From the NCBI RefSeq assembly GCF_001316005.1, contig NZ_BBBJ01000008.1, forward strand, positions 62,001-126,000: a DNA stretch of 64,000 bases, given 5' to 3'. Shown piece after piece: positions 1-64,000 of the stretch (the stretch's first letter is position 1; every line of letters starts with the position of its first letter). Source of the stretch: Vulcanisaeta distributa JCM 11217. GTDB taxonomy: Archaea; Thermoproteota; Thermoprotei; Thermoproteales; Thermocladiaceae. The notes beneath the pieces are model-generated. The model searched no databases and was not told the DNA's origin. It saw only the letters and a list, made by a program, of their open reading frames with translations. A program made the position numbers and the translations under genes.

Positions 1-2
1 CT

Positions 3-125
3 GTGGTACTCACGCTGGTTAAGCATGTGCTTAAGCAGCTTAGTGATTCCGGTTATTTGCAGGTTGATAGTAGTAGGAGTGTCGTTAGGTACAGGCTGTG
101 TAAGGACTCCAGGCTTTGGGGTTGA
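3..125 (+). CDS. C-terminal end of a winged-helix-like protein (partial)
   Basis: An open frame runs in from the left edge and stops at TGA 123-125, giving about 40 residues. The sequence (VLKQLSDSGYLQVDSSRSVV, then RYRLC) resembles the recognition helix and wing of a winged helix-turn-helix domain: helix, turn, then two beta strands carrying a basic residue pattern. The start and the rest of the protein lie outside the window, so the family cannot be named. It is co-directional with the following thiL gene, but a TATA box lies between them. Confidence 0.4.
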   Translation: MVLTLVKHVLKQLSDSGYLQVDSSRSVVRYRLCKDSRLWG

Positions 126-206
126 TAAAGCAGAGTAGTGGTCCTGAGGATGTATTAAAATTCCTCGAGGAAGTGACCCAGTGAGTCGTTACTCTAAATC
201 CAACAC

Positions 207-215
207 CTTATATAT
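207..215 (+). promoter_or_regulatory. TATA box of thiL
   Basis: The element CTTATATAT lies about 28 nt before the ATG at 239, the spacing expected for leaderless transcription in crenarchaea. It supports 239 rather than a later ATG as the thiL start. Confidence 0.5.
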
Positions 216-238
216 GAGGCATGCACATTCTCATTGAA

Positions 239-1239
239 ATGAGTGGGGGGGAAGGCAGTACCAGGATGGGCGGTGTGTTAAGGGGGGTTTTGGAGAGACG
301 AATTTAATAGGCATTATTAGGAACATCACTGGTTCGGCCGAGGATAATGACTTGGAATTTATCGAGGTTGATGGCACCGCATTGGCCATTAAGATTGATG
401 GTATATCACTATCGACATCGAGAATGCCCTTCATGACCTACTTCGACATGGGTTGGAAGGTCATGATGGCAGTGGGTAGCGACTTCCTCGTAAAGCTAAG
501 TAGGCCTCTTTATGCCGTGGTCTCAATAACCATGAGAGGCAGCTCGGGTATTGATGAGTTTAGGGAGTTGATTAGTGGGTTGAATGAGGGAGCAAACTAC
601 CTTAGCATGAGGTATTTAGGTGGTGATTTAAATGAGGGGGGGTTTGATGACATTATTGATGTTGCCGCAGTGGGTAAGCCATTGGCTGGTGTTATAGGTA
701 GGAGGCCTAGGATTGGTGATGTTCTCGTGACCAAGCCTTACTTTGGTTATACGGGTCTCGTGTTTAAACTATACTATAGTAATGAGTTGGATAGGTGGGT
801 TGATTTGAGGATTGTTAAGGAGGGGGGGATAGACATGATTAAACGACCCAAACTTGAGATGAATTTACTAAATGAATTATTGAAACGTAGAGACTGCATT
901 TCGGCTAGTATGGACTCAAGTGATGGGCTTGGTAAGGTGCTTTGGACAATGGCCATGGACGGCAACGTTAAGATAGTGATTAATGATTTACCAGTTAATG
1001 AGGAGTTTCTTAACATGGTGAGTGAAATCAGCGGTATTAATATTGAGGAGGTCGTGTTTAATGGCGGTGAGGAGTTCCTGCCCGTGTTCTCAGTAAGGAG
1101 GGATTGCATACCCGAGTTTGAGGAGCTTGGTTTTAAGGCGTTTGCAACGGTTGAGGAGGGTAGCGGCGTTTACTTTAGGGACTCAATACTTAGGTATAGG
1201 GGGGGTTGGGACTACTTCATTGGCTGGGCCAGTACCTAA
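239..1239 (+). CDS. thiL: thiamine-monophosphate kinase ThiL (frame broken at 282-287)
   Basis: Phosphorylates thiamine monophosphate to thiamine diphosphate with ATP. The N-terminus from ATG 239 contains GFGETNLIGIIRN, the ThiL-type start, but this part is in a different frame from the body because the G run at 282-287 has 6 bases where 4 restore the frame. The body shows FDMGWKVMMAVGSD, the AVVSITM strand, MDSSDGLGKVLW and the late FNGGEEFLPVF motif, in the order seen in the PurM/ThiL superfamily. About 330 residues, normal for ThiL. Further glycine doublets inside the body coincide with 7-G runs. The stop overlaps the 3' end of the convergent MFS gene by 4 nt. Confidence 0.85.
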
Positions 1240-2712
1240 GCCTCAATAGCCCTTATTTCGCCCTTCACGAATATCTCACGCGTCAATGTTACGATAACTA
1301 CTATAGCCATTACGTAAAGCGCCGTGGTTATTATAAACATTAATTGATAGGAGAACTTCGCAGGCAGCGTTATCCAGAACAGGGGGGCCTTAATGAAATG
1401 AGCACTGAGCTTGGTACATACTCATTAATGAACCAGCCACCGCGGGCCCCCCCACGCACCCCCTATGTTCCTAAAGACCGAGTTAAGACCTGTGGCAAGG
1501 CCCATGTTTCTCCTGCCCACGGAGAAGACTAGGATGTTTATCACCGCGACATTAACCATACTTATGCCGGCGGCTAGTACGGACATCGACCCTATCACAT
1601 ATGATAAGCCGAGGAATGACGTGTACGTGAGCATTAATAGGCCGATTATGGCTATTGAGGAGCCAATGACAGCCAACTTCCTGGCGCCGATGCTCGTGAT
1701 TACCCTACCGGCTATTGGCGCAACTATCATCTGAACAACGGCCATGGGTATCATCATGATGCCTGCATCAAGTATTGATAGGTCATAACCAAGAGGCTTG
1801 GGCGACTCAAGTAGGTATGTTAAGGCTTGAGCCATTAGGAATAGGGCGAAGCCGGCCAGGGCAACGCCTATGTTGGCGGCCATGACATTCCTATTACCTA
1901 ATAGGTTTATTGGAACCAGGGGGGGTAATCAACCGTTGTTTCGTAAAGCACAAATACTCCAAAGCCTAGCACAAAGAGTGTAAGTAGGGACATTATTAGT
2001 GGGTCAGTCCAGCCGTAGGTTGGTGCGTCTGTGACCGCTATTAAGCCGCTGGCCAGTGATGCTGAGAGTAGGAATAGGCCGACCCAATCAATTGGTTGTG
2101 GGTTCTTAATCCTACTCTCCCTGATGTATAGGTAAACCATTAAATCCTCGATTATGATGAAGGGATATACCGTGTGGTACGTGGCTTGCCAACCGAGGGT
2201 TTGGGATACGTAGGCACCTAGCGGTAGTGATACTGCCATTCCAACCCCGAACATGGCGCTTATTAGTCCCTGGACCTGCGGTATCATGCGCGGTGGAAAC
2301 TCCTCCCTAACTAAGGCGAAGGCGAGGGGGGGCATCATTGCCATGCCAACGCCCTGCAATGCCCTACCCACCAGGAGCATTCCATAGCTCGTTGAGAACC
2401 CTGTGATGAGGGCGCCAATAGTGTACGTAATCATCGTTATCATGAGCATTCTCTTCTTACCATACATGTCGCCGAGCTTACCCATTATGGCTGAGGATAG
2501 TGTACCCATGAGGATGTATATCGATAATATCCAGGAGGCATCGGCAGTAGATATATTGAGGTCTCTCTGAATCGTTGGTAGTGATGGTACGAGCATCCCT
2601 CGGTATACATAACAACGAGTGTTAAAGTGACCAGTATCGCAGTTGCACGCCATGCATAGGCAACATCATACTCCCCCCCTCTAGACCAACTCCACCTCCA
2701 CGCACCTATCAT
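1236..2712 (-). CDS. MFS transporter, DHA2 (14-TM drug:H+ antiporter) type, frame broken at about four sites
   Basis: A proton-coupled efflux pump of the cytoplasmic membrane. Recognisable pieces are LVPSLPTIQRDLNIS, then SWILSIYILMGTLSSAIMG followed by KLGDMYGKKRML (MFS motif A), a mid-protein DWVGLFLLSASLASGLI typical of DHA2 members, and GGAWGP-AVAGSLMS. The frame is interrupted near 2600 (a C triplet where 4 fit), at the G7 of 1919-1925 (5 fit), at the C7 of 1447-1453 (5 fit) and near 1395. Joined, it ends at TAG 1236-1238 with EIRAIEA. The start at 2712 overlaps the end of the upstream surface-protein gene; the N-terminal boundary is uncertain. The substrate is unknown. Confidence 0.75.
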
Positions 2713-4525
2713 CACCGCCACAAAGCACTTCATAACTCACCAACCTACTTTGGTAATTACCCGGCCCCCCCTGGCCGGTATTGGAGATTTGTAATCCGCG
2801 GTTATTATTACCACCCAACCTACGTCTTCTAATTGCGGCGATTACCCCTATCACAATCACTATTATTATTAGTATTAGGACAATCCAGAGTAGTACGTTT
2901 GGCGCTGGCTTCACGGTTACGTAGGTTGTTACTGACTCGGTCAATGGGTATAGCGAACCCGTCTGATTCCATATAAACGTAAGCACCAGTGGGTAACTAC
3001 CTGGCCTTGCGTTTGAGTCCACGTCAACTAGGAATGTGACGTTTATTTCCTGCCCAGGCTTTAGATCACCTATGAATGCTTGAGATGCCGTTAATGCCGA
3101 GAGTGGATTGCTCGATGATACGTGGGGCTGTATTACCTGGCCCGTGGATATAGTCACCATTATGTTCTTAGCCTCCACGGGCCCCTCATTCATTATCGTA
3201 ATCGTTACTGGAACCTTGGATGCGCCAGGCGATAGCGTTGGTGAGGTGATTGTGCTGAGAAGCGCGCCTAGGTTTGATAGGCTTGGGTTCGGTGGTTGTG
3301 GATAACTAACACTCACGATTATTAGGTTTGCCCTAGGCCTCACATTTAATACGTAATACCTGGTTGTTAACCCGCCATCGTAGGTTACGGTTATGCTCAT
3401 CGTGTAATTACCTGGATTGCTCGGTAGACTCACAGGTATTGTAAGCTGAATTGGCTGGCCAGGCGGTATTGCACCAAGTATTAACGGCATACTCACCAAT
3501 GGCGAGGCGCCCGTTCCATTTATGAGGAGCTCAGCGTCGTAGGCGATCCCAGACCCTATGTTAACAATGCTTAGTATTAACTGGGCCATTGGGTAGCCCT
3601 GGAATACCTCAGGTGGGTTTGTGGCTATGGACTGAATATAGACAATGGGCTCCTGAGGAACCACCAGCGTTGCGTTGATCACATCGTCAACGCCCGTGAA
3701 GTAATCAACCCTAAGTTCCAGTGTATAATTACCCTGCGGTATGTAGTTGGGTACGTATGCGTAAAACGTCAATGGCACGGGTTGACCAGGTGGTAAAGCT
3801 GGAAGGTGTTGCGTTGTGTTTACTATATCGAGCTGCGGTGGTGCTGATAATAGGGTAACCGTGACATTGTAGACAGGAGTATTTCCGTAGTTGGTTAGGT
3901 ATATCGTTATGGGTACGTAGGACTTAGGCAATGCCTGAACAACATTATCCGGCGTGCCTATCATGGCCGTCGCCTCAAAACCAACATAACCAAGTATGGG
4001 TATTGAAACATTGGTACTCACGCTCTCCGAGGATTGGGAGGTGGATATTGAGGGTATCGAACCCATCACAGTCGGTATCTGTATCGTAACCGGGACAGTC
4101 TTAACACCGGTTATGACAGGCTCGCCATTATATAATGTCGTGGTTACCAACGTGGTAACGGGTATTGATATGGTCTGATAGACAATCAGTGGTTTAACGC
4201 TAGTCGTTATATTAACCTCCGTGTAATTAACGGTTACCGGCACCTGGTAAATACCCATCGATACGCCTGGATCAACCTGCACATAAACAATGCATGAGCT
4301 ATTACCCTCAGGCGGTACAACCGGTATTTGGCAGTAATTAGATGTGGAATTGACATAATAAATGGGCTTTATCAATGATGAGTTTATGGTTATGGTCATG
4401 TTAAACAGGTAAGCCTGCGTCGGATTAAACACAGTAAACACTAGGTATGAATCCTCGCCAGGCGCCACGGGCTGATTTAACAGCCAGTGCGCCAGCACTA
4501 TTATAGATAGTGATATCGGATCCAT
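2681..4525 (-). CDS. cell-surface protein with tandem CARDB/COG1361-like domains and C-terminal membrane anchor
   Basis: About 615 residues: an N-terminal hydrophobic segment, then repeated beta-sandwich modules of the archaeal S-layer-associated COG1361/CARDB kind (recurrent patterns such as PVTIYLTNYGNTPVYNVTV and LPPGQPVPLTFYAYVP), many N-glycosylation sequons, one transmembrane helix (VLLWIVLILIIIVIVIGVIA) and a basic cytoplasmic tail RRRR. This is an extracellular, membrane-anchored protein; its ligand is unknown. The ATG at 4525 is preferred over 4546 because TTTTTAAAG lies about 29 nt upstream of it. GQGGPG in the tail coincides with an expanded G7 run. Confidence 0.65.
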   Translation of the reverse strand: MDPISLSIIVLAHWLLNQPVAPGEDSYLVFTVFNPTQAYLFNMTITINSSLIKPIYYVNSTSNYCQIPVVPPEGNSSCIVYVQVDPGVSMGIYQVPVTVNYTEVNITTSVKPLIVYQTISIPVTTLVTTTLYNGEPVITGVKTVPVTIQIPTVMGSIPSISTSQSSESVSTNVSIPILGYVGFEATAMIGTPDNVVQALPKSYVPITIYLTNYGNTPVYNVTVTLLSAPPQLDIVNTTQHLPALPPGQPVPLTFYAYVPNYIPQGNYTLELRVDYFTGVDDVINATLVVPQEPIVYIQSIATNPPEVFQGYPMAQLILSIVNIGSGIAYDAELLINGTGASPLVSMPLILGAIPPGQPIQLTIPVSLPSNPGNYTMSITVTYDGGLTTRYYVLNVRPRANLIIVSVSYPQPPNPSLSNLGALLSTITSPTLSPGASKVPVTITIMNEGPVEAKNIMVTISTGQVIQPHVSSSNPLSALTASQAFIGDLKPGQEINVTFLVDVDSNARPGSYPLVLTFIWNQTGSLYPLTESVTTYVTVKPAPNVLLWIVLILIIIVIVIGVIAAIRRRRLGGNNNRGLQISNTGQGGPGNYQSRLVSYEVLCGGDDRCVEVELV

Positions 4526-4638
4526 CGAAACACACAAAACAAGCACCCTCTTTAAAAACCATTCTCAGTTATCGAATAGATATCGATGAAGTGTACGTAC
4601 AAAAAATTAATAAACCAAGGACAATGAATAATGAGCTT

Positions 4639-4734
4639 GCGGGGGGGGTGCCCGAGCCAGGTCAAAGGGGGGGACGGGTTTAGGTCCCGTTGGCGAAGGC
4701 CTGCGTGGGTTCGAATCCCACCCCCCCCGCACCA
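4639..4734 (+). tRNA. tRNA-Leu (UAG anticodon), CCA encoded
   Basis: A type II tRNA with a long variable arm (TGGCGAAGGCCTGC), T arm GGGTTCGAATCCC, anticodon loop TTTAGGT and encoded 3' ACCA. The 5' strand reads GC plus eight G and the 3' strand eight C plus GC; a normal 7-bp acceptor stem needs GCGGGGG and CCCCCGC, so each strand carries three extra bases. The D arm also has G7 where four G fit. If taken literally the acceptor stem would have 10 bp and the molecule could hardly be charged. Confidence 0.93.
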
Positions 4735-4978
4735 GAAGTTGAATTATCTATGAATCAATTCGTTTTCATCTCAATCGGTGACTGTTTTTCATAGGACCTA
4801 AAACGCGCCCAGGTGATTAAACACTCAGTAAAGCATGGTTATTGCTCGTTAATGGCCATTGATGAATTAAGCAATGACCACGCCTACTAATCCTTAATTA
4901 CTTAAAGTGGGGGCCGAAATCCAAAGTTTATTATTCTGTGAGTAGGGATTTTTAGCCCATGCATCTCGCGGTCTTCGT

Positions 4979-24396: not shown

Positions 24397-24446
24397 TTAC
24401 CGCTAATAACACATTAATACTGGAATTCTTCACCTTACTAGGGTTT

Positions 24447-25720
24447 ATGCCAGACACGACCATAGAGGATTTGGGTATCAGGAAAATCTTTAACTCAAGG
24501 GGGGGTGAGGAGACGGTCGAGGTTGAGGTATACCTGACAGATGGTTATGGAAGGGCAGCAGCACCAGCCGGCGCATCAAGGGGTTCTCACGAGGTCGTTT
24601 ACTTCCCCCCCAATAACGACGTCGACCTAGCAATTAGTACCTTTGAGAAGAGCGTGGCACCTGACTTAATGGGTTTGGATGCGTCAATACAGGGCGAGGT
24701 TGATACAAGGCTTGAGGAGATTGATGGTACGGAGAACTTCTCGAGGATAGGCGGTGCGGTTGCCATAGCAACGTCAATGGCATCCGCTAGGGCAGCGGCG
24801 AATGCCTGGAGATACCGCTTTATCAGCACCTTGGCGGTGCTAATATCAGGGACTTGCCATACCCACTCGGTAATGTAATTGGCGGTGGTAAGCATAGCCG
24901 TGGGCTTGGCCCTGATATTCAGGAATTCCTGGTGCTACCGTATGGCGCACAGGACATTTACTCCGCCCTTAGGGCTAACATTGAGGTTCATAGGGCGGTC
25001 TTTAAGGAATTAGTTAAGGTGGATCCGACGTTCACTGGTGGTCGTAATGATGAGGGTGCCTGGTCAGCCAAGGTATCCACTAACGCGGCATTGGATATCC
25101 TGAGCAGGGCTGTTAAGGAGGTTAGTTCTAAGATGGGTTTTGAAATAGGGATTGGCGTTGATATGGCGGCATCAACGCTATGGAATGGTGAGAAGTACGT
25201 ATACACCAATGAGGGTGTCTCAAGAACGCCAAAGGAACAGCTCGAGTTTGTTAAGGGGGGGTTGATTGAGAAGTACGGGCTTATTTACGTTGAGGATCCA
25301 TTCCATGAGGAGGACTTCCAATCCTTCGCAGAGCTTACGGACTCTGTTGGTGATAAGTGCCTAATCGTTGGTGATGACCTATTCACGACGAATCCATCCA
25401 GGTTATCCAGGGGTATTAAGGAGGGTGCTGCAAACGCCATAATAATTAAACCCGACCAAATAGGCACCCTATCAAGGGCTTGGGAAGCCGTTAGGTTGGC
25501 GGTGTCTAACGGTTACGTGCCGGTGGTGTCCCATAGATCTGGCGATACCGAGTATGAGACCCTGGCTCACATAGCCGTTGGCTTTGGAGCACCAATAATA
25601 AAGAGTGGGGTCCTTGGTGGTGAGAGGATGGCTAAGCTTAATGAGTTGATTAGGATTCAGGACTACATGGGTAAGGCTGCCAGGATGAATCAATCACTAA
25701 CGCAACGACTTAAGCATTGA
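24447..25720 (+). CDS. eno: enolase, frame broken near 24807
   Basis: Interconverts 2-phosphoglycerate and PEP. IRKIFNSRG-EETVEVEV is the N-terminal motif, GASRGSHEVV the substrate loop, VIGGGKHS the histidine loop, GVDMAAS the metal Asp, YVEDPFHEEDF the second metal ligand, VGDDLFTTN the third, and IIKPDQIGTL plus PVVSHRSGDTEY carry the catalytic Lys and His. The frame is lost between 24800 and 24860; adding one T at 24807 restores ALEIPLYQHLGGANIRDLP. SRGGEE and FPPN lie on 7-base runs and contain one residue too many. It is followed by rps2 and MEMO, a common archaeal order. Confidence 0.95.
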
Positions 25721-33415: not shown

Positions 33416-33838
33416 ATGAGTGAGGAGAGGGAGTTAATCGAGAAGATCTATAGGAAGATGATAATGACGCGCCTTAGGGAGTCGTCAGTAAGCAGGTCCA
33501 TGTGCCCTAACGGCATTGTAATGCTTAATGGCAATAGCTTCACCGCATCGATTAGGGAGTGCTCGGCCTCCGTTATCGACTTCTACGCTGATTGGTGCAT
33601 ACCCTGCAAGATAATGGAGCCAATACTCAATAAGTTATCCCAGGTATTCGCGGGTAAGGTATTCTTTGGGCGTATCGATGTTGATGCATACCCAGAGATT
33701 GCTGCTGAGTATGGTGTTATGTCAATACCAACCACGATACTATTCAGTAATGGTGAAGAAATCTATAGAATAATTGGTGCCGTTGATTATAACACGATGA
33801 GGAGGTATATTGAGATTTACCTAGGGGTTAAGCCCTAG
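33416..33838 (+). CDS. thioredoxin
   Basis: A cytoplasmic disulphide oxidoreductase of about 140 residues. After an N-terminal extension (ELIEKIYRKMIMTRLRES) comes the fold: SASVIDFYADWCIPCKIMEP with the CIPC active site, GRIDVDAYPEIAAEYGVMSI, cis-proline SIPTTILFSNGEE and the last helix YNTMRRYIEIYLGV. ATG 33416 lies about 28 nt after CTTTTAAAGG, a good leaderless promoter. The C-terminal GV sits on an unexpanded G4 run (33824-33827), a useful contrast with the many 7-G runs. The stop overlaps the convergent gene by 4 nt. Confidence 0.9.
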   Translation: MSEERELIEKIYRKMIMTRLRESSVSRSMCPNGIVMLNGNSFTASIRECSASVIDFYADWCIPCKIMEPILNKLSQVFAGKVFFGRIDVDAYPEIAAEYGVMSIPTTILFSNGEEIYRIIGAVDYNTMRRYIEIYLGVKP

Positions 33839-34596: not shown

Positions 34597-35931
34597 GTGC
34601 CCACAAAGAACTTAGAAATCGAACCAGCAGACCTATGGAGAATCCTAAAGGCCTCAGGCATAAAGTATGTTAAGTTCATAATAGTCGACATAAACGGCGC
34701 ACCAAGGTCTGAAATAGTACCAATAGACATGGCCAAGGACCTCTTCATTGATGGAATGCCCTTCGACGCATCATCAATACCATCATACTCAACAGTGAAT
34801 AGGAGCGACTTCGTGGCGTATGTTGATCCAAGGGCCGTATACGTTGAGTATTGGCAGGATGGTAAGGTTGCTGACGTATTCACGATGGTATCCGACATAG
34901 CCGATAAGCCATCACCCCCCCTTGACCCAAGGAGGGTGCTTAATGATGTGTTGGAGCAAGCCAAGTCAAAAGGTTACGAGTTCCTAATGGGCGTTGAAGT
35001 TGAGTTCTTCGTGGTTAAGGAGGATGGCGGTAAGCCCGTGTTTGCTGACCCAGGTATTTATTTCGATGGTTGGAACGTCACGGTGCAGTCACAGTTTATG
35101 AAGGAGTTGATAACGGCAATAGCGATGCGGGTATTAATTATACGAAGACTCATCACGAGGTTGCACCAAGTCAATATGAGATAAACATAGGCGCCGCAGA
35201 CCCACTTAGGCTCGCTGACCAGATAATATACTTCAAGATAATGGCTAAGGACATCGCTAGGAAGTACGGCTTAGTAGCCACATTCATGCCAAAACCCTTC
35301 TGGGGGGGAGTCAACGGTAGCGGCGCGCATACGCACATCAGCGTCTGGAAGGACGGCAGGAACCTATTCCAGAGCAATACTGGAAAGATAACGGAGGAGT
35401 GCGGCTACGCAATAAGCGCGATATTAAGCAACGCGAGGGCATTAAGCAGCTTCGTCGCGCCACTCGTAAATTCATACAAGAGGTTGGTACCTCACTACGA
35501 GGCCCCCACGAGGATTGTCTGGGGGGCTATGCAAATAGGAGCGCCATGATTAGGATACCACAGTACAAGATGAGGATTAACAGGATTGAGTATAGGCACC
35601 CAGACCCAAGCATGAACCATACCTGGCCTTCGCGGCCATGGTGAAGACCATAATAAAGGGTCTCGAGGATAGGAAGGAACCACCACCACCAACCGAGGAG
35701 ATAGCGTATGAGTTAGCCAATGCCCAGGAAACACCGGCCACGCTTGAAGACACGTTAAAGGAATTATCAAAGAGCTTCCTAGTCACCGAATTACCAAGCG
35801 AGTTAGTAAACGCCTACATTAAGATCAAGCAAAATGAGTGGGAGGACTACCTAACAAATGTTGGTCCCTGGGAGAAGACCTGGAATGTAATAACTCAGTG
35901 GGAGTACAGTAAGTACCTAGTCACCGCTTAA
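34597..35931 (+). CDS. glnA: glutamine synthetase, frame broken at three sites
   Basis: Forms glutamine from glutamate, ammonia and ATP (type I, archaeal). IKYVKFIIVDINGAPRSEIV and MPFDASSI form the N-terminal beta-grasp; FLMGVEVEFFVV carries metal ligands; NYTKTHHEVAPSQYEINIGA and FMPKPFWGGVNGSGAHTHIS follow, then LVNSYKRLVPHYEAPTRIVW, YANRSAMIRIP and RIEYRHPDPSMNPYLAF. Breaks: near 35120 (one A missing), the G6 at 35521-35526 (four fit) and CC at 35617-35618 (three fit). About 444 residues. GTG 34597 lies about 25 nt after CTTAAAAA. The next gene is an ammonium transporter. Confidence 0.95.
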
Positions 35932-38031: not shown

Positions 38032-39282
38032 TCACTCTAGAACTGCATTGCCGCCCTTTAGAATTCCATAACCAACAATCCTCCACCTATTACTAACCTG
38101 CTTAGTAATTACGGCCTTAGAACCCTCCTCCGCGGAGACGGCCTTCCTAAGTATCACGTCGAGCTTATCATCGTGGAACCCCTTTATAATCCCCATGACG
38201 GCTGCCGAGCCCACGTGAACCATGACCACATCCTTCGGCTTAAACGTAACCTCCTTCAATGATTGATCACCAGGCCTCTCGATCCTGTGAAACTCAAGGG
38301 TTAATTCACTCCACACAGGTGGTAATGTGCCTGCCTACCGACAACACTACCCACCAGGGAGTCGGCCTTCGTTAATGCCGGGTCAAGCTCCGTGCCAATA
38401 CCCACCAAACCACCTGGTCTCGCCTCCTCAATATACTCATTCCCAATGGCTATACTGACTATCTTCGTAATAATCGGCTCATACTTATTACCCAACTTAA
38501 GGCCCGGCCTTATCTCAATCTCATCCCCCCCAACCTTTGCCGAACCCTTAACGACTGTGCCACCAAGCACGCCACCAACTAACTTATCCGGTGGTGTACC
38601 TGGCTTATTGACATTAAAGCTTCTCAGGACAAGCATCCTGAAATCACCACCCGCAGCCTCCTTAGGTGGCACTAGCTTATCGATTAGTGTTGATACTGCC
38701 TCGATATTGACCTTATGCAGTGATGATACGGGTATTATTGGTGAGTTCCTTGCCCAGGTATTGCTAAGAAACTGCTTGATCTGTTTATAATTCTCGAGGG
38801 CCTGCTCCTTACTAACCAGGTCAAGCTTATTCTGAACAACTATTAGCTTGTTCAGGCCCATAATCGTTAATGCCGTGAAGTGCTCCTCAGTCTGTGGCTG
38901 GGGGGGTACGGGCATCGACGCATCAATTACGAGTAATGCAGCGTCGATGTATGATATGCCAGATATCATCGTGCTTATTAGGACCTCATGACCTGGAACA
39001 TCGAGTATTGAAACCTTCCTCTTCAAAACAGGCTCATCACCGCCTGGGCACTTACCATCCTTAAGTAGGCCATCGCTAACGATACTAAACTCATCCCCCC
39101 ATGGATGGGCACTCGTATAGGCCAATGGTTATGTAACCGAGCTTAACAGTCATGGCCCTCTTAATCTCCTCACTATACCTGGCAACCCAAACACCACTAA
39201 GTGCGTGCACCAGCGTTGTTTTGCCGTGATCCACATGACCCGCAGTTGCGATGATGGCGTTTGGATATATGTATTTACTCAT
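38032..39282 (-). CDS. translation initiation factor aIF2 subunit gamma, frame broken at two sites
   Basis: The GTPase subunit of aIF2, which brings initiator tRNA to the small ribosomal subunit. ATAGHVDHGKTTLVHAL is G1; SILDVPGHEVLISTMISG is G3; IVVQNKLDLVS is G4; VPPKEAAGGDFRMLVLRSFN and PGTPPDKLVGGVLGGTVVKG belong to domain II; the end is VGYGILKGGNAVLE. The zinc-knuckle region (GLYECPSMG then GKCPGG) is split by C6 at 39094-39099 (five fit); the second break near 38333 needs GGG for GG (VVGRAGTLPPVWSELTLEFH). About 414 residues. It precedes the PIN gene by about 10 nt. Confidence 0.93.
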
Positions 39283-39382: not shown

Positions 39383-39625
39383 CGCGGCTGTATGCCCAGC
39401 CACGGCAGGCAACCGGGCGAGCCCGGCAACGGCTCGCCTGAGGAAACTTCCCCCACAATACCGTGGGTCCCCCGCGGGGGGGTAACCCGCCGACCGAGAG
39501 GTCGCTGTGGGACAGTGGCCCAAATAGGGGGGGCCTGTGATCTCCACGGGTGAGGCCCGGGTAGGGCCTTAGACGAATGGTACAGAAGGGGGGGAGTTAT
39601 GCCGTGGCTGGGCATACAGCCGGCC
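39383..39625 (+). ncRNA. rnpB: RNase P RNA, short form
   Basis: The catalytic RNA that removes tRNA 5' leaders. A 23-bp helix closes the molecule: 39385-39407 pairs with 39600-39622 (GGCTGTATGCCCAGCC against its complement). Just inside are the conserved region I sequence GAGGAAACTTCCCCC (39439-39453) and conserved region V, AGACGAATGGTACAGAA (39572-39588). No clear specificity-domain signature is seen, and the whole is only about 225 nt once expanded G runs are discounted, consistent with the reduced type T RNase P RNA described from Pyrobaculum, Caldivirga and Vulcanisaeta. An antisense open frame over the same bases is a shadow. Confidence 0.8.
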
Positions 39626-40604: not shown

Positions 40605-40990
40605 GCGAGAGGGTAGGGAGTTGCTCAGGAGGATTTTGAGTAGGGGGTAGGATTGCCTATGACTCATTGAGTGAGGAGGAGAGGAAGGCAGTTGATGAGT
40701 TGGTGAGGCTTGGCTATGTCAGGCTTTACGTAGAGCCCAACAGCAGGAGGCTTGGCGATGCGTTAAGAGTTATTGGCTCAACCGGAGGTCTCCGCAGTAT
40801 TCATCACATTATCATGAATTACGCATGCCTAGCCTTGGCGCTGTTGATACCATTATTATTCCTATACCTATCCATGAGGTCATTAATGATGGGCTACGCA
40901 CTGGTGGGAGCATTCTTCCTAATTATTACCCTGGGGGCTCGCCTATGCATCTTTCCTAATTATTCGAAGGAGGCGTTGCCGCCTAGTTAG
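40592..40990 (+). CDS. winged-helix/membrane protein, unknown function, frame broken near 40610-40650
   Basis: About 132 residues. From ATG 40592 (MDELSERV) the frame must change twice near 40611 and at the G5 of 40642-40646 (four fit) to give ELLRRILSRGRIAYDSLSEE, then ERKAVDELVRLGYVRLYVEP, a helix-turn-helix-like front, and two helices NYACLALALLIPLLFLYLSM and MMGYALVGAFFLIITLGARL. Overlap with the preceding gene indicates coupled expression. No family is recognised. Confidence 0.5.
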
Positions 40991-42368
40991 ACCCTGATTA
41001 TCCTTATGCTATAGTCATTGTACGTATCTATAACGCCATGGGTAAGTAGGACCAAGTCACCCTTAGCCACTAAACCACTCCTTATCAGCTGGTTCAGCGT
41101 CTCCCTCTCACCCTCATCATAATCCTTAACATCCCCCCCAATAAGTATTGGCTCCACACCCCAATAAAGCCTCAGCCTCTTAAGCACCCTCTCATCGCTA
41201 ACGCCCACGTACGTAGGCACCTTAGGCCTATACCTGGATATGGCCTCGACGAATCTACCACCCCCCCTCGAGTAAATGACGATCTTGGCACCAATGTCCT
41301 CGGCGAGTTGAACAATGCCCAGGGCAAGCCTATCGGTTAGGTTAGCCATCACGCCCCCCCTATCGATACGCACATCATCCTCGTACTCCATGGCAACCCT
41401 CCTCAACCACTGCACAGCCTCCACAGGTACTTACCGACGGCAGTCTCCCCAGTCAGGAGTAGTGAGTCGACACCCTCCATAACCGCGTTCGTTATATCCA
41501 CGACCTCAGCCCTAGTCGGCACCGGCTGCTCTATCATTGACTCCAGCAACTGCGTGGCGACCATGGTGGGCACACCACACCTCTGGGCCTCCCTAATTAT
41601 TGAGCTTTGTATCCTAGGTATCTCCTCAAGATCAAAGTGCATGCCCAGATCGCCCCCCCTGGCAACCATCACATAATCACTGGCGCAGATAACGTCCCTC
41701 ATGTTCCTCACGGCGTCGGGACCCTCAATCTTAGCCACGAGCTTAACCCAATCACCGCCAAGTCTCCTTAACTCGGCCCTGACCTCCTCAATATCGTCTG
41801 AGCTCCTAACGTGGCTAATACCCACGTAGTCCATACCAACCTCTACGGCGAACTTAAGGGCCTCCCTATCATAATCATCAAGTATTGGCAGTGGGTAATC
41901 CTTACCCTTAATAACCACGGCCTTCTCCTGGGAAATAGTCCCCGCGGTTAATGCCGTTAGTACGGCATTGTTAGCCGAAACCTTATCAACACGTAGTCTC
42001 AATCTGCCGTCGTTCATCACAATGACATCATCTATCGTTATGACCCTGAAAAACGATGGGCTGGGTATCGGTACGAAACCCCCCTCCGACTTATCAGCGA
42101 GCCTAAACTCCACGGAATCACCAACATTAAGCGTTATGGGCCTCATGATTCCAGTCCTAACCCCAGGACCCCCCCTCAAATCACCGAGTACCGCGATATC
42201 GCCCCCCCTAAAGCCCCCCCTGGCATTTGATATTCTAGACCTCCACTCCTCAGTGTTGCCATGGGAGAAGTTTATCCTTATCCCATCTACGTACTTAATT
42301 AATTCCTTCAACACCTCAGGCTTCTCCGAGGCCGGCCCTATGGTCGCTATGATCTTTACCTTACCCAC
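40987..42368 (-). CDS. pyk: pyruvate kinase, frame broken near 41426
   Basis: Transfers phosphate from PEP to ADP. IIATIGPASEKPEVLKELIK opens the barrel, DGIRINFSHGNTEEW follows, KIEGPDAVRNM is the catalytic-lysine strand, VARGGDLGMHFDLEEIPRIQ carries the universal ARGDLG motif with one surplus glycine (plus-strand C7 at 41653-41659), PTMVATQLLESMIEQPVPTR and AEVVDITNAVMEGVDSLLLT follow. Adding one base at the GG of 41426-41427 gives AVGKYPVEAVQWLRRVAMEY. About 460 residues. Seven or more RGG/EGG doublets in the gene coincide with 7-base runs. It is convergent with a membrane-protein gene. Confidence 0.95.
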
Positions 42369-44905: not shown

Positions 44906-47900
44906 ATGGAATCGTTTAAATCAAAGGTTGAAGAGTTATATGGCGATTTTTTGAGGGAGATTAGGGAGATTGAGCAAAAATGGCAGAGGGAGTGGTATGG
45001 GAAGGGTATATTTAATGCAGATCCAAAGCCTGGTAAGCCTAAGTACTTCATTACGGTGCCCTACCCATACGTATCGGGTTCACCGCACATAGGTCATGGT
45101 AGGACATTCACGATAGGCGACATAATAGCTAGGTATAAGAGGGCTAGGGGGGGTTTAATGTTCTATTCCCAATCGCATGGCACATAACGGGGGGGACTCC
45201 AATACAGTCAGTGGCCGACAGGATAATGAAGGGGGGGGATCCAGAGGACATAAAGTTGTATTCCTGGTACGTGAGCCTGTACGTGAATGATCCCAACAAG
45301 GTTAAGGAGATATTAAGCACATTCACCAACCCCCCCTGGAACATAGCCCAATTCTTCGCCTCAGTATACACTAGGGACTTCATGTCCATGGGCTACTCAA
45401 TGGACTTTAGGAGGCAGTTCACGACTGGCGACCCCGACTACAACGCATTCATTATCTGGCAGTACTACAGGTTGAGGGAGGCTGGTTACATAACGCAGGG
45501 TAGTCACGTAGTCCTATACTCACCGGATGAGAATCAGGCAGTGGGTGAGCATGACATTAAGGGTGGGGGGGATGAAATAACAATAGACATACTCGAGTTC
45601 AACCTAGTGAAGTTTAAGCTGGAGAATTCCAATGAGTACCTGGTTGCAGCCACATTAAGGCCTGAGACCATATATGGGGGGGTCACGAACGTGTGGGTTC
45701 ACCCAAGCGTTGAGTATGTCATTGCAGATGTTAATGGCGAGAGATGGGTAATATCGAAGCCAGCCGCCTGGAAGTTGAGTTACCAGGGCTATGACGTTAA
45801 GGTTTTGGGGGGGTCGGTACGTGGTGAGGAATTGATAGGTAAGTACGTAATCGCACCACTAATTAATAGGAGAGTGCCGGTGCTACCCGCGAGCTTCGTT
45901 GATGAGAATACAGGCACGGGAATCGTCTATAGCGTACCCGCCCACGCACTACGACTACGTAGCCCTGATAGATCTTAAGAAGGATGAGAAGGCACTGAGT
46001 AGGTACGGGATTAAGGAGGTTGTTGAGTCGATAGAGCCCATAAGCATTATCAAACTTCCTAACTACGGTAAGTACCCAGCCAAGGACGTGGTCGAGAAAC
46101 TCGGCGTTAAGGATCAGGGCGATAGGGAGAAGCTTGATGAGGCCACGAGGATCGTGTATAGGGAGGAGTTCTATAATGGCGTTATGAAGGAGAATACGTT
46201 ATTCCCTGGATTGAGTGTCAATGAGGCTAGGGAGAGGACGATCAAGGCACTGAGTGAGCAGGTGCGTGGGGGTAGGATGTACGAGCTTGAGCCTAGGAAT
46301 GTATACACGAGAAGTGGTAACCCCCCCGTAATTGCCGCGGTTATTAAGGATCAGTGGTTCCTTAATTATGGGAATCCTGAGTGGAAGGCGAAGGCGTTTA
46401 AGTGTCTCAACTCAATGAGGATAATACCCGAGAAGTACCGGAAGAACTTTGAAGATGTGTTTAATTGGTTATCCATGAGACCGTGCGCGAGGAAGAGGGG
46501 GGGTTAGGTACGAGACTTCCCTGGGACCCTGACTGGATAATCGAGTCCTTAAGCGACTCGACGATATACATGGCGTACTACACGATTGCTCATAAAGTAA
46601 GGTCAAGCGGTCTCGATAGGAAGCTTGGGGGGGAGTTCGCGGGGGGGAGGGTCATAAATAGTAGGGGGGGTAACGATAGGGACGCCCTCAATGCAATAAT
46701 GGCATTCTTTAACTACGTGTTCTTAGGCGAGGGTGATCCAGGCCATGTTGCTGAGTTATTTGGTGTCAGTAGGGAGCTTGTTGAGGATTTGAGGAATGAG
46801 TTTGATTACTGGTACCCAGTGGATGAGAGGCATAGTGGACCTGACCTAATAAGTAGTCACCTGAGCTTCTTTGTGTTCCACCACGTCGCCATATTCCCAG
46901 AGAAGTATTGGCCCAGGGCAATAACGTTTAATGAGTACGTGATTAGGGAGGGCATGAAGATGAGCAGGTCATTGGGAAACGTGCTTCCACTACCCTACAT
47001 ACCGAGGAAGTATAGCACAGACCTCGCCAGGCTTTACCTGGCCTCAGCCACCGACCTCGACTCAACGCTCGATTGGAGGGAGGATGACGTAGCCAGCGTC
47101 GCGAGTAGGCTTGTTAGGTTCTGGAGTCTCGCCAATAATATCATTAAGGAGGGGAGACCATCAACTAGTGTTGATGTTAGAGGTGCATCATTAATTACGC
47201 AGTGGTTGATTTCAAAGGTCAATAAGGCGATACGTGACTCGACAATTGACATGGATAACGAGAACATTAGGGGGGGTACACACTTAAGGCGTTTTTTGAC
47301 CTGCTCTCGTCAGTTGAGAAGTACCTGGAGATTGCGGGCCTGATTAATGTGGGTAAGGATGAGGTTAAGTGGGCGCTGTGGTACGTCCTTGAGCGCTGGG
47401 TTAAGTTGTTGCAGCCGGTGATGCCTCACATTGCTGAGGAGCTTTGGCATAGGATGGGTAATGAGACGTTCGTATCCCTGGAGCCCTGGCCTGAGTATAA
47501 CGAGGAGTTGATAAACGACGAACTTGACATTGCGTTAGACTTAATTGAGAGGGCTATAGAGGATGTTCAGGAAATACTTAGGGTCACTAAGATAATGCCT
47601 AAGGCCGTGTACCTATACGTAGGGCCGCCAATTGAGTATTATCAAGTGGCTAGTGAGGCCATTAGGCTCATTAATGAGGGTAAGACCATGGGCGAGGCGA
47701 TAAGGGCCATTGTTAATAAGCCCGAGTATAGGCGCATGGCCGATAAGGTGGCTAATCTCGTGTCTAAGGTTGTTGATGGTACAATACCAAGGAAGATAGT
47801 GGATAGAGAAATGGAGCTGAGGGTCTTTAGGGAATTAAGTAATTACATTAAGTCGAGGATTGGTACAGAGGTCTTCATTCAGGATGCTACAAACCCAACA

Positions 47901-47981
47901 TACGACCCAGGTAATAGGGCGAGGAATTCATTACCTGGAAGGCCTGCCATATACATAGAGGCTGTGAAGGAAGGTCAATAA
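44906..47981 (+). CDS. leuS: leucyl-tRNA synthetase (archaeal type), frame broken at four sites
   Basis: Charges tRNA-Leu. VPYPYVSGSPHIGHGRTFTI is the HIGH region, TLRPETIYGGVTNVWVHP is in the editing domain, RPCARKRGLGTRLPWDPDWI (after correction) and IIESLSDSTIYMAYYTIAHK follow, MKMSRSLGNVLPL is the KMSKS loop, and AEELWHRMGNETFVSLEPWP starts the anticodon domain. Breaks: G7T3 at 45147-45156 (G4T4 fits), near 45940 (CCC for C), G7 at 46497-46503 and G7 at 47271-47277 (both five). Corrected length is about 1000 residues. Several extra glycines are due to other 7-8 G runs, such as 45230-45237. Confidence 0.95.
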
Positions 47982-58706: not shown

Positions 58707-59821
58707 TGATTATGGCTAATAAATTATTCATTAAGTCTCCCGTTAGTGACGTTGCCGTGCTCGATATCAAGCTAAACCTGGGCTCATTACAGGAGGCTTA
58801 CCCTGGCGTTGCCAATGTCCTAATACCGCTATGGAGGATGAGCAATTACGCAAGGGAGTTGGAGAGGGTTGGTGTTTCATTCTCCTTTGAGAAGGGGTTT
58901 GACGCACTCACGCTTAGGGTTAAGGCCAGGTACTCGGTCGTTGGTAAGGCTGTGAAACTCATCGAGGGCATGCTCCTAAACCCAGTCATTGATAGGCTTG
59001 GTGATGCCATTAGGGAGGCGAGGACGAGTATAAGCATTAATAGGGAGGATACCGCGGTAAGATCGGTAGCTGAGGCGTTAAAGGTATTATTTAATGACCA
59101 CCCATACTCCAGGCACCCCATCGCCTATGACTATAGGCTTGACGGCATAACCAGGGATCACATTAGGGAGGCCATTGAGTCACTGAGGGTTTTATCATTA
59201 ACCATCGTGGCTCCTGAGAATACAGTAGATATTGACCTGCCATACACGAACTACGAGGGGGTCCCGGTTAATAGATTTAGGAGTGGTGATGTTGATGTTA
59301 AGCTTGAGGGTAAGGTGCAGACCACAATAACAATTGCATACCCAAGCTACGGCATTAAAGACCTGGAGGGTTCCTTCAGGGTTACGGTCATGAACACAGT
59401 ACTCGGAGGCATGGGCTTAGTATCGAGACTTTACAGGGAGGTTAGGGTGAGGAGGGGGGGCTTGGCGTACTACGCCTACTCCATGTACTGGCCACTGGGT
59501 AGTTCGGGAATACTAATCGCAATGGCTGGTGTACGTAGGGAGGTCCTCAAGGAAGCCCTTGAGGTCATGCTAAGCACCATAGGTGAGCAAACAATTTCTG
59601 AGGAGGAGCTGAGGATGGCCATTAGGAATAGGGTTGGTAGGCTCAAGGTCAATGCAGAATCACCCGAGGGTATGGCAATGTTATACTCAGTAATACCGAC
59701 ATACGGCCTACCAACAGATTACTACGAGAGATTCATCAACTACATAAGTGGGTTAAGGCCTGAGGACATATCGAGGGAATTAAGAAACCTACCAAGGCCC
59801 GCCATAGCGGTGGTTGGTTAA
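58703..59821 (+). CDS. M16-family non-catalytic partner subunit
   Basis: About 370 residues. It has the fold signatures of M16 (GVSFSFEKGFDALTLRVKAR, VMNTVLGGMGLVSRLYREVR, LAYYAYSMYWPLGSSGILIA) including the R/Y substrate-binding pair, but I see no HxxEH motif, as in the beta subunits of heterodimeric M16 peptidases. The GTG/ATG start overlaps the end of the catalytic gene. Only one long run (59455-59461, G7) falls in it, giving RRGGLAYY for RRGLAYY. Frame intact. Confidence 0.78.
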   Translation: MMIMANKLFIKSPVSDVAVLDIKLNLGSLQEAYPGVANVLIPLWRMSNYARELERVGVSFSFEKGFDALTLRVKARYSVVGKAVKLIEGMLLNPVIDRLGDAIREARTSISINREDTAVRSVAEALKVLFNDHPYSRHPIAYDYRLDGITRDHIREAIESLRVLSLTIVAPENTVDIDLPYTNYEGVPVNRFRSGDVDVKLEGKVQTTITIAYPSYGIKDLEGSFRVTVMNTVLGGMGLVSRLYREVRVRRGGLAYYAYSMYWPLGSSGILIAMAGVRREVLKEALEVMLSTIGEQTISEEELRMAIRNRVGRLKVNAESPEGMAMLYSVIPTYGLPTDYYERFINYISGLRPEDISRELRNLPRPAIAVVG

Positions 59822-60038
59822 TTAAGTGATGGCAAGCCCACCTTAAACATTAAAGAGACCTCCTAACTTAGTGTTGGATGGACCTTCATCGTCACTGTGC
59901 AAAACAATTTGAGGAACACAATTGCTAGGAAGCTCAGGAAGCACTGCTTATTGCTATGCCACCAAACCCTGGCTTACTCCTCCCAAACAATGAAGAACCC
60001 AAGGAAAGCTTAAAATTGCCTCATGAAATGACATTACC

Positions 60039-60141
60039 GGGGGGGCCGTAGTCTAGCCTGGCTAGGATGCTCGGCTCGGGATCTATAGAAGGACGCGAGC
60101 CCGAGTGATCCCGGGTTCAAATCCCGGCGGCCCCCCCACCA
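60039..60141 (+). tRNA. tRNA-Pro (CGG anticodon) with intron, CCA encoded
   Basis: D arm TAGTCTAGCCTGGCTAG, anticodon stem CTCGG/CCGAG with loop CTCGGG (CGG at the anticodon, G37), T arm CCGGGTTCAAATCCCGG, discriminator A and encoded CCA. About 19 extra bases (near 60082-60100) after position 37 form an archaeal intron; GGCTCG and CGAGCC flank it and give the helix of a bulge-helix-bulge site. Acceptor strands read seven G and seven C where four each suffice (GGGGCCG/CGGCCCC). Confidence 0.85.
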
Positions 60142-60380
60142 CGTTTGTTGGGGGGGTTAGTCTTATCGCTTATGAATTGAGGGGAACTGACATTCATGAC
60201 TTCATTTACGGTTTCGTTCAGCCCATGGGTCCTAGGCGAGGCAGTTTAGGCTCTTCGCCTTTACCTTCCTCGCCCTTTCAAACTACTTAGACGCATTTTC
60301 CTCTTTCAATAATTGAGTCTTTGTGTACGTTCGACTACGGTGATTCAAGGTTAAAATACTCCCAGCGAGGGTTAATTGAA

Positions 60381-61124
60381 ATGGCTATTTCCGATCTGCA
60401 TAGGTGGCATGTGTCGTTGATGGATGAGGCGAGGAATGAGAGGGAGGCATTTTATATTCATTCATTGATTGAGTTCTATGGTGGGAAATTGAATGAGAAG
60501 TACAGGGTAATTCTCGACATGCCCTGCGGGCATGGTAGGCTGCACAGGTACTTGAGGGTTATGGCTATGATGTGTATGGTGTGGATATTTCGGAGGAGTT
60601 GATTAGGATTGCCAGGGATAGCCATAGGGGGCTTCGAGGATCACTACTTCATCGGTGATATGAGGAATTTCAAATTAGGGAGGGAGGTTGATGTCCTGTT
60701 GAATTGGTTCACGTCGTTTGGTTACTTCGATGATGAGGGTAACATGGAGACTCTGAGGAATTTCCACGAAAACCTAAGGAATGGTGGATTGCTAATAATT
60801 GATTTCCCAAACTTCCACCTACTTTCTATTGATAATAGGGCTGTTGTTTATGACTATGGAGATATCATCGGCATAGTTAGGGAGTACCTGGAGGACAACT
60901 CAAGATACAGTGTTTTGCACGAGAGGTTTTACAGGAGGGATGGCGATAACCTGGTATTCATTGGTGAGTCTAGGACGAGGGTCAGGAGATACTTTATTGA
61001 GGATTTCATGGACATGCTACCCAAGGCCGGGTTCGCAGTACTTGGAGTTCATAGTACGTTATCATTCAGTGACTTCAATAGGCTTAGGGACCAGCGATTC
61101 ACCGTAGTAGCCATTAAGAGGTGA
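60381..61124 (+). CDS. class I SAM-dependent methyltransferase, frame broken at two sites
   Basis: About 247 residues. MAISDLHRWHVSLMDEARNE and AFYIHSLIEFYGGKLNEKYR precede VILDMPCGHGRLHRYLRV, motif I of the SAM-binding Rossmann fold; after adding bases near 60560, GYDVYGVDISEELIRIARDS is motif II; the G5 of 60627-60631 (four fit) restores RGFEDHYFIGDMRNFKLGRE, then VDVLLNWFTSFGYFDDEGNM is motif IV and NGGLLIIDFPN motif VI. The substrate is unknown. GTTAAAATA about 28 nt before ATG 60381 supports the start. Confidence 0.75.
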
Positions 61125-61497
61125 TTATAAACGCCATTTTTACGTGATTATCAACGCCCAATTAGCACCGGCTTAACCAATGCTTCATACTCAATCGCAT
61201 TTCTCTTAATATTACGTTTGATTATTATGCATGCTTAGGCATGCCTACCTACGTCAATAAAGGTATAAGGATATCTACCCGGTACCGGGAATTTCCCAGT
61301 ACCGGTATGAAATTCGCATTTGGCAGGGAAAAGAATGACGAAGCCTGGTGTTTAGCAGGACAGTCACAATAACTATTTTTACTGGGTTCATAACTTATTA
61401 AGATTCTTGGCCTAGAAAAATTGAAATTACCATTAATTAATCATTGACTAAATGGGCTAAGATCTATGAGGGCTTTAGGATAATACTCGTGGCTGGT
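61125..61497. other. intergenic region with an inverted repeat
   Basis: About 370 bases between the methyltransferase and a convergent MFS gene. It has no coding frame I can support; GCATGC occurs twice near 61229-61244, and a strong inverted repeat lies at 61279-61305 (separate entry). Confidence 0.4.
61279..61305. repeat. near-perfect inverted repeat, 13-bp arms
   Basis: The arms CCGGTACCGGGAA and TTCCCAGTACCGG are separated by a single T and differ at one position. A hairpin in RNA would be strong but with almost no loop, so a cruciform or a binding site for a dimeric protein is equally possible. It lies between two convergent genes, where a bidirectional terminator would also make sense, but no T run follows. 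Confidence 0.55.
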
Positions 61498-62796
61498 TTA
61501 CGAGACTTCATCCAGCTTCCTTAACTCGATGCCCGTGTTATCGCGGGTTATTGCAGTGCCTATTATCGCTATTACAAACCCAACAATGAGCATTACCGAG
61601 TAGCCAACCACGAGGCCTAGCCTAAGCCAGAACGGCGCGGTGAGTAGGGCTGCCGTGGCGCCTATCGAGGCCATGTTCCACAGGAAGCCTATTGCCGAGC
61701 CCCCCCTAAATCGTGTCGGGAATAACTCGGCTAAGTACGCCAACATAACACCACCAGTACCGACGACGCTGGTTAGGATGCCAGCCGAGACCACGAGGCT
61801 AGGAAGGAACTCCTCAAAATCGCCGTTAGTGGGTAGGCGAGTACAATACCTATTAATGAGTAGTATAGGAATGCGTACTTCCTCCTCGTGACATTACTCA
61901 ATACCCCACCAATTATCGTTATCACACCGCCAATGAGTGATGCGTAGGTCAATCCCCAAAACACCGTGGATAGGGGGGGTATCCTTAGGAAGGTTCCTAG
62001 GTAGGTTGGTAGGAAGCCGAGGGTCGCGTAGGCAACCCAGAAGATTCCGGCGAGTAGTAGTAAGGCTATTAACGCGTCGCGGTAGCCCTTACTAAAGAAC
62101 TCAATGACGGGTGCCCTGGAAACCCTACCTGCACTCTTCAACTCCCTGTATATGCTCGGCTCATCAACCGTGAGTCTCAGTAGGACGCCTATCACGGCGA
62201 CCGCGAGGCCAACTAGGAAGGCATACCTCCAGCCGTAGGCCACGAAGGCCCTCGTGCCGAAGTAATCCCTTAGCGAGGCGAAGGTGAACGCCGCGAGTGC
62301 ATACCCCCCCCAGTAGTAACCGCTCTCGATTACACCACTGACTAAGCCCCTATACCTAGGCGACGAACTCTCGATAGCCACCAGGTGTGAGCCGCTCACC
62401 TCGCCGCCAACGAATACGCCAACCAGGAGCCTAAGTAGTACGAAGAGCGCGGTGGCTAGTAAGCCAATCTCCTGGTACGTGGGTAATGCGCCGGTTAGGC
62501 TGAGGATATGCCTAATCCAATTAACGTTACCATCATCGTTAGTCTCCTACCAATTCTATCGGCTACGTGGCCAAATATTACACCGCCCAGGGGGCCTGGC
62601 GAGCAGGGTCAGTGAGTAGGAGGCGAATACGAAGAGGAGCCTGGCGATTAAGCTTGTTGGTGGGAAGAAGTACATGCCGAGGACCGAGGCTATGAATAGG
62701 ACCAGGGTTAGGTCGAAGACATCAACCATCCAACCAAGCATACCACCAACCATGGCCCTAACATTAACCCCCCTCGGTAATTGCCCTCCCAGTCAC
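61498..62796 (-). CDS. MFS transporter (metabolite:H+ symporter-like), frame broken at several sites
   Basis: About 430 residues, 12 helices. VDVFDLTLVLFIASVLGMYF and MLGWMVDV open it; SLTLLARPLGGVIFGHVADR (motif A) appears after correction; GGEVSGSHLVAIESSSPRYR and GLVSGVIESGYYWG resemble the sugar/aromatic-acid MHS branch; VDEPSIYRELKS is the central loop; MLAYLAELFPTRFRGGSAIG is the second-half motif. Breaks lie near 62580, 62400-62540 and 61790. Possible starts are ATG 62753 and GTG 62796; the latter lies about 24 nt after TTATATAATG but needs the run 62768-62773 to be five. The substrate is unknown. Confidence 0.72.
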
Positions 62797-62865
62797 GTTA
62801 TTAAATCACCAGCGCATTATATAAGCATTACCGTAGCCACAATAGGCTATTTAGACAGTAATGCC

Positions 62866-63827
62866 CTAATCCTTATCCAGAGTCACGAACTCCCTAACCA
62901 ACTCGCCATGTCTCCTAAGGTCCTGGACAAGCCCCCCCCTAAGCTCATCAAGCAGTATTACCTTAACCCTCCTCCTAAGCTCATGGAACGAGCCCCCCCT
63001 CAACACCCTCTCCAGCGCCTTCCTGGCATTCTCATCCCTAACCACGGCATATAACCTAACACCCCCCCTCCACCTATCCCTCGCATGCTTAAGCCTAGCC
63101 AACGCCTGCTCAGGGTTATCAACAACCTCAAACACAGCCAGCGGCGCCAACCCATCCCTATACTCATCCTCATTACCCCCCCACCAGGCAAGCCCCCCCA
63201 GCCTATACCCACCAACATCCACATTACCGACAGGGTAATAACCAAACAATTGAGCCGCCTCCATCAACAACGCCACCGCCTCATTAACGCCCTGAGTAGT
63301 TGATTCAGCCTCAACACCTGCCCCCCCACCAACCACCCTCTCAACACCACCCTTTGGCGTTCCCCCAAAACCTCAATCACGGGCTTGGGTATTGATTGAC
63401 TCCTCAACTCATTAATTATCAACTCCGCATCCTCAATGGGCATGGGCATTGCCTTCGGATTAGACGGATCCACGGAGTGCAGGGCCTCGGTAATGCTTCT
63501 CCTACCCCCCCTAATGAATGATAGTTTATTGGCGATTCTTCCAAGCTCAACTCTACCCAGGGTTATTGGCTTGACCTCAATAACGTGGGACCAATCACTC
63601 AACTTCTTACTAGCCTTAGTCCAATCACCAACAACCTCGAAAACCCCCACGAAGGACTTACAGTAGGACTTACAACCGAAGCCACTTACGAAGAGTACCA
63701 AGCGTGTGCCGGGCCTAACCCTAGTCATTAATAAGCCACACTCTGGATCGCGGCAACCAAATAGGCCCGTCTCGACAATGCTCATGAAGACCCCCCCCTC
63801 CCTCACAATGACAAGCCAGTAATTCAC
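62866..63827 (-). CDS. EVE-domain protein with C-terminal PD-(D/E)XK-like domain, frame broken near 63362-63366
   Basis: About 315 residues. From GTG 63827 the front reads NYWLVIVREGVFMSIVETGL, then PGTRLVLFVSGFGCKS, FVGVFEVVGDWTKASKKLSD and VELGRIANKLSFIRG, an EVE/PUA-like fold. After a linker the second half has GVNEAVALLMEAAQLFGYYP, YRLGLAWWGNEDEYRD and PLAVFEVVDNPEQALARLKH, then ARDRWRGVRLYAVVRDENAR, resembling a PD-(D/E)XK core with weak catalytic residues. The halves join if C5 at 63362-63366 is three or six. EVE domains read modified bases in some restriction enzymes. Function is inference. A TATA-like AAAGTTTTTCTC precedes the start by about 28 nt. Confidence 0.5.
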
Positions 63828-64000
63828 GGGTAATACATAGCTAGGTAGAGAAAAACTTTTGCTGGGGGGGTCGCGGCGCGTCATAATTCAATTGAGTGCA
63901 TTTGAATAGTAAATAAACCCATGCCTCAACGCCAGTGAATTTAACTGGAAACCACTAATTACAATGATCAAACGATACTTAAGCATTTTTAATTAAGGGG

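Follow-up and report, generated by a model that had tools for sequence, protein, structure and literature searches.

Seven- and Eight-Base G and C Runs in the Draft Genome of Vulcanisaeta distributa JCM 11217: A Probable Sequencing Artefact

The draft genome of Vulcanisaeta distributa JCM 11217 contains a large excess of G and C runs of seven or eight bases. These long runs are almost certainly not real; they would be over-calls in a draft assembly made from flow-based sequencing, absent from the DNA of the organism. The stretch analysed, referred to here as the window, comprises 64,000 nucleotides of contig NZ_BBBJ01000008.1. A first-pass annotation, made from the letters of the window, had judged a base-calling, polishing, or assembly artefact to be the most likely cause, and that judgement is supported by clean sister genomes, by a near lack of sequence context, and, for two of the three affected genomes, by an upper limit of 8 on run length.

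Run lengths in the window and in the genome

When all runs on both strands were counted, the window was found to hold 160 G/C runs with a length of 7 or 8. Chance predicts very few: 100 mononucleotide shuffles of the window gave a mean of 4.1 runs of at least 7 and a maximum of 11, in agreement with the earlier expectation of about four. In the first 12.5 kb, where about 35 had been estimated by eye, 32 such runs begin. The C runs of 4, 5, 6, 7, and 8 bases number 37, 14, 4, 61, and 15, and the corresponding G runs 33, 16, 6, 78, and 6, so that the pooled spectrum has two peaks (70 fours, 30 fives, 10 sixes, 139 sevens, and 21 eights). No G/C run of 9 or more bases was observed among all the runs of the window. 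The A/T runs decay smoothly to a maximum length of 6.

The pattern is genome-wide and not confined to the window. Over its full length of 2,076,046 bases, in 19 contigs, the genome contains 3857 G/C runs of exactly 7 and 435 of exactly 8, and none reaches 9. Long runs occur in tRNA genes, in the RNase P RNA, and in coding and noncoding DNA alike, as had been noticed at the outset. In strictly noncoding DNA the G/C runs number 4 fours, 9 fives, 4 sixes, 20 sevens, and 6 eights, with the same peak at 7. Selection for in-frame insertions of three bases is ruled out by this peak, which is equally strong outside genes.

The shape of the spectrum also bears on the alternative that G/C tracts have truly slipped because the lineage has no MutS/MutL mismatch repair. 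MutS and MutL are missing from many archaea of this group, presumably also from the clean sister genomes, and slippage would agree with the restriction of the effect to homopolymers. However, it predicts a smooth distribution with a tail, whereas the spectrum has peaks at 4 and 7 with few runs of 6, the A/T runs are normal, and nothing exceeds 8 in either JCM 11217 or the second affected Vulcanisaeta genome, JCM 11216.

Comparison with related genomes

To follow individual runs, 355 kb of the JCM 11217 genome was aligned with the matching stretches of V. distributa DSM 14429 (287,019 columns), and a run was retained only if its flanks were clean in the two genomes. The reference is a sister genome and not a second assembly of the same strain. 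G/C runs of 1-3 bases in DSM 14429 are hardly altered in JCM 11217: among 3653 runs of 3, only 2 are longer and 60 shorter (51 of them 3 to 2), and two runs of 1-2 bases were aligned against a 7 or 8. The threshold is sharp, at run length 4. The 407 runs of 4 in DSM 14429 are read in JCM 11217 as 7 (205), 4 (157), 5 (27), 3 (10), 6 (5), 8 (2), and 2 (1); that is, 250 are changed, 239 of them longer and 11 shorter. The 40 runs of 5 become 5 (16), 8 (11), 7 (10), 6 (2), and 3 (1), and one of two runs of 6 is read as 8. The run-by-run comparison thus confirms the lengths first deduced from conserved motifs, with runs of four read as 7 and runs of five as 7 or 8. The commonest change is a gain of three (4 to 7), but the changes from 5 to 7 (10/40) and from 6 to 8 (1/2) indicate that runs end at 7-8 and do not gain a fixed three bases. 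A/T runs are concordant between the two genomes (for example, 301 of 312 runs of 4). JCM 11216 behaves alike when set against DSM 14429, with 39 of 93 four-base runs read as 7, while a comparison of two clean genomes showed differences in 0 of 41 G/C runs of 4-5 and in 0 of 389 runs of 3.

Features of the window are collected in Table 1. In the RNase P RNA, the G7 runs at 39476-39482 and 39588-39594 are G4 in DSM 14429 and the run at 39527-39533 faces GGGA. The tRNA gene at 60042-60138 had no counterpart within the DSM 14429 stretches compared. Two runs had been named as examples left at their original length; the one at 33824-33827 is indeed GGGG, but there is no G4 run at 24571-24574.

Table 1: Positions of long G/C runs and affected genes in the window.
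Feature	Position	Strand	Remarks
Whole window	1..64000	.	160 G/C runs of 7-8; part of the genome-wide pattern
G8, 5' end of tRNA gene at 4642	4641..4648	+	G5 in DSM 14429 (alignment)
G7 within tRNA gene at 4642	4667..4673	+	G4 in DSM 14429 (alignment)
C8, 3' end of tRNA gene at 4642	4721..4728	+	C6 in DSM 14429 (alignment)
Enolase gene, frame-split	24435..25717	+	Best single frame 0.68 of DSM 14429 protein
GGGG, not expanded	33824..33827	+	
Glutamine synthetase gene, frame-split	34597..35928	+	Best frame 0.40 of DSM 14429 protein
Initiation factor 2 gamma gene (EF-Tu GTP-binding and eIF2-gamma C-terminal domains), frame-split	38035..39282	-	0.61
RNase P RNA (Rfam RNaseP-T)	39397..39610	+	G7 at 39476-39482, 39527-39533, and 39588-39594
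Pyruvate kinase gene, frame-split	40990..42368	-	0.68
Class I aminoacyl-tRNA synthetase gene (probably leucyl-type), frame-split	44906..47978	+	0.26
tRNA gene, ends in G7 (60039-60045) and C7 (60131-60137)	60042..60138	+	

The long runs occur only sporadically among related genomes. Among 12 genomes of the genus Vulcanisaeta, the excess was observed only in JCM 11217 and JCM 11216 (draft BBBI of the JCM series; 502 eights and no G/C run of 9 or more in the genome), and the other ten hold 0-5 sevens, which rules out a trait of the whole lineage. A survey of the class (81 genomes) found the excess in three genomes of two genera, the third being G020, a genome from another genus of the same family that we infer to be Thermocladium modestius. 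This genome contains 7958 sevens and, in eight places, runs of 9 or more, so that the ceiling at 8 is not absolute there. The completeness listed for JCM 11217, JCM 11216, and G020 is 67%, 67%, and 47%. A comparable excess was also sought in 395 genomes of Bacteroidota, 117 of the order of Metallosphaera, and 120 of the class of Ferroplasma, samples taken evenly from larger groups, and the maximum was 865 sevens (G703). One further entry that was counted, G081, lies above this value and is JCM 11216 once more, with identical counts. Eight higher-scoring genomes (G703, G659, G643, G634, G287, G239, G025, and G029), each sampled over 6-40 kb, were rejected as G+C-rich (0.58-0.71) with a smooth decay of run lengths.

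This distribution speaks further against slippage, which should be shared by descent: ten other genomes of the genus are without the effect, the clean pair shows no change in runs of 4-5, and a separate origin in two genera would be required. With no tail beyond 8 and clean sister genomes, we regard slippage, placed second to an artefact in the first-pass annotation, as extremely improbable. It is just as hard to credit that the runs are real in another way, with four-base G/C tracts of a few thermoacidophilic strains lengthened to seven or eight by a self-limited, unknown process unrelated to descent.

The choice of the runs that expand was examined by predicting 4 versus 7 from the 12 bases on each side and local G+C. 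The two cross-validated AUC values were 0.56 and 0.53 for JCM 11217 (n=880), 0.56 and 0.52 for JCM 11216 (n=289), and 0.53 and 0.47 for G020 (n=351). Flanks and local G+C hardly predict which G/C runs expand; length matters and not a motif. One of six flanking positions reached p 0.039, uncorrected, in JCM 11217. The share of runs at 7 is similar in the three genomes (0.64, 0.61, and 0.60). In the G020 stretch tested it was 0.50 for G runs and 0.71 for C runs, and no such difference was found in JCM 11217 or JCM 11216. Expanded sites common to JCM 11217 and JCM 11216 show a weak association (odds ratio 1.9, p 0.28, 64 sites).

The near absence of context dependence counts against a methylation motif or a signal that depends on neighbouring bases. 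A modified base in C-rich runs that disturbs the signal of long-read (nanopore) sequencing would fit an effect that is limited to G/C, genome-wide, and present on both strands, but it should depend on neighbours, and we detected no usable dependence on the 12 bases on either side in any of the three genomes. In addition, a JCM draft of the same genus (BBBK) was obtained with the short-read Ion PGM (PMC9872577). We consider a modified base, also ranked below an artefact at first, very improbable.

Proposed origin in Ion Torrent PGM data

Several observations back the reading of the long runs as an artefact: they are sporadic among close relatives, one affected genome is a draft of the JCM series, two of the three affected genomes have nothing longer than 8, flanking sequence has next to no influence, and core genes are broken. 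The source is probably Ion PGM data, and the batch would most likely be the drafts made on the Ion Torrent PGM for strains of the Japan Collection of Microorganisms (JCM) around accessions BBBI-BBBK. The Ion Torrent PGM was used for the V. souniana JCM 11219 draft BBBK (PMC9872577), and an excerpt of PMC5069417 assigns BBBJ to JCM 11217 and BBCT to JCM 11215. The genomes of JCM 11217 and G020 may come from the same JCM programme.

In flow sequencing a homopolymer is read as one signal, the height of which is converted to a length. We suggest that G/C runs of at least 4 were converted to 7 or 8 in somewhat over half of the cases and that runs of 1-3 were spared. A homopolymer over-call specific to this batch of Ion PGM drafts, made at base calling, is the account that we favour, with some reserve. 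A homopolymer recalibration in the Ion Torrent software would fit the threshold if it began at length four, and a per-nucleotide recalibration acting on runs of at least 4 is a tentative candidate for the specific cause. A literature search returned no text on the Ion recalibration setting, and among the matches listed none, judged by title, dealt with such an artefact in JCM drafts.

The known errors of the platform resemble the present ones in part. As described in excerpts of Bragg et al. 2013 (PMC3623719), Ion PGM miscounts are bound to homopolymers, rise with run length, and need no motif, and runs of 2-3 are under-called, as with the 3-to-2 changes reported above. In contrast, the same excerpts have deletions dominating at runs of at least 2 and making up most errors at longer homopolymers, whereas in JCM 11217 G/C runs of at least 4 mostly gain three bases and A/T runs do not. 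Ordinary PGM noise therefore gives no change from 4 to 7, and an added fault of calibration or consensus has to be assumed.

Such a fault may instead lie in the assembly, the reads from the same data source holding 4 and an assembler or correction program having put 7. The similar share at 7 in the three genomes would suit this, as would the rarity of intermediate lengths of 5-6, expected of a yes-or-no decision, and Newbler has been applied to Ion PGM reads, according to an excerpt of PMC4256183. JCM 14467 (BBDM) and JCM 16159 (BBDN), JCM drafts both, show no G/C effect, which counts against an assembly or consensus fault, although their assembler may differ; we think it unlikely. Since we infer the Ion PGM for the three affected genomes, a fault of another flow-based or unknown platform with the same effect was also considered. 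BBBI adjoins BBBK, for which the Ion PGM is documented (PMC9872577), and another platform seems decidedly unlikely to us.

Other JCM-labelled genomes were inspected besides the affected ones. Sphingobacterium humi JCM 31225 has 29 sevens in 4.7 Mb and is without the effect; together with JCM 14467 and JCM 16159 it counts against the account favoured above. JCM 14467 and JCM 16159 show a small A/T effect of their own. The aligned DSM 14429 A/T runs of 6 are read there as 7 or 8 in 4 of 4 cases, and their spectra contain 9 and 13 A/T runs of 7-8, compared with none in DSM 14429, as though a fault had struck different nucleotides at a different threshold.

Broken genes and G-quadruplex counts

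Genes were tallied for the 32 that are intact in each of the two clean genomes. JCM 11217 contains 31 of these, of which 13 are in one frame and 18 broken; the window includes broken core genes for a class I tRNA synthetase, enolase, pyruvate kinase, initiation factor 2 gamma, and glutamine synthetase. Elsewhere, 12 of 32 genes are in one frame in JCM 11216, 9 of 29 in JCM 16159, and 18 of 32 in JCM 14467. Because genes are also broken in the latter two, which do not show the G/C effect, the gene breaks point to error-rich drafts generally and are no proof that the long runs are false. The change from 4 to 7 preserves the frame, and most frame breaks are other small indels: nucleotide alignment of the contig of the window gave 131 other frame-breaking indels versus 25 frame-breaking long-run insertions, and a further 95 long-run insertions are multiples of three. 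The gene tally does not draw on the frame count from nucleotide alignment, in which frame-breaking gaps appeared in the clean control pair too (16 of 28 ORFs).

False G runs inflate G-quadruplex counts, and JCM 11217, JCM 11216, and G020 each represent their species in the collection searched. The long runs matter as data hygiene and not as biology. According to excerpts of PMC7565180, Thermocladium modestius JCM 10088, Thermococcus celer JCM 8558, and Methanoculleus chikugoensis JCM 10825 have a very high G-quadruplex density among archaea, and a link of this density with extreme habitats was suggested. GnNiGn repeats with n above 7, numbering several hundred at most, are described in an excerpt of PMC8044849 for M. 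cariaci JCM 10550, T. acidicola JCM 13583, and T. modestius JCM 10088. The long G runs of these JCM archaeal drafts are similar to the paired runs of G020, where G7 or C7 runs form 16 pairs with a spacing of 1-2 bases in 220 kb; they differ in that the excerpted text does not call them errors. The JCM entries of both papers would likely stem from the same artefact, and published surveys of G-quadruplexes may thus contain it. By a simple count, the window has 3.61 G4Hunter-like regions per kb and G020 has 5.34, compared with 1.67 and 2.23 in two clean Vulcanisaeta stretches. The affected JCM 11216 reaches only 2.69 per kb, barely above the 2.38 of a genome from another genus (G014).

Homopolymer faults other than the long G/C runs

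The JCM 16159 and JCM 14467 drafts, Vulcanisaeta assemblies free of the G/C excess, have a homopolymer fault of their own that is milder than the G/C one and unlike it. In the stretches of these two drafts that were compared (L025-L033), all four aligned A/T runs that are 6 long in the clean V. distributa genome, DSM 14429, were read as 7 or 8. A/T runs of 7-8 numbered 13 in JCM 16159 and 9 in JCM 14467 over the same stretches, and none were present in DSM 14429.

Short G/C runs were under-called at a low rate, with runs of 3 read as 2 in 51 of 3653 cases (355 kb compared, including positions 1-64000 of the window), and this leads to extra frame breaks, separate from the long runs.

A tRNA with expanded runs

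Expanded runs in a tRNA of the window
Feature	Position (window)	Expanded runs	Anticodon (ARAGORN)
tRNA	4642-4730	three	none assignable

The other affected genomes

G/C runs of at least 9 were found at eight places in the whole genome of G020, the affected member of another genus of the family, and were mostly 10-12 long, whereas the affected Vulcanisaeta genomes had none. JCM 11216, the other affected Vulcanisaeta draft, is labelled V. distributa but looks like a different species, because its sequence is only 82.4% identical to that of DSM 14429 (67 kb aligned, L020-L024).
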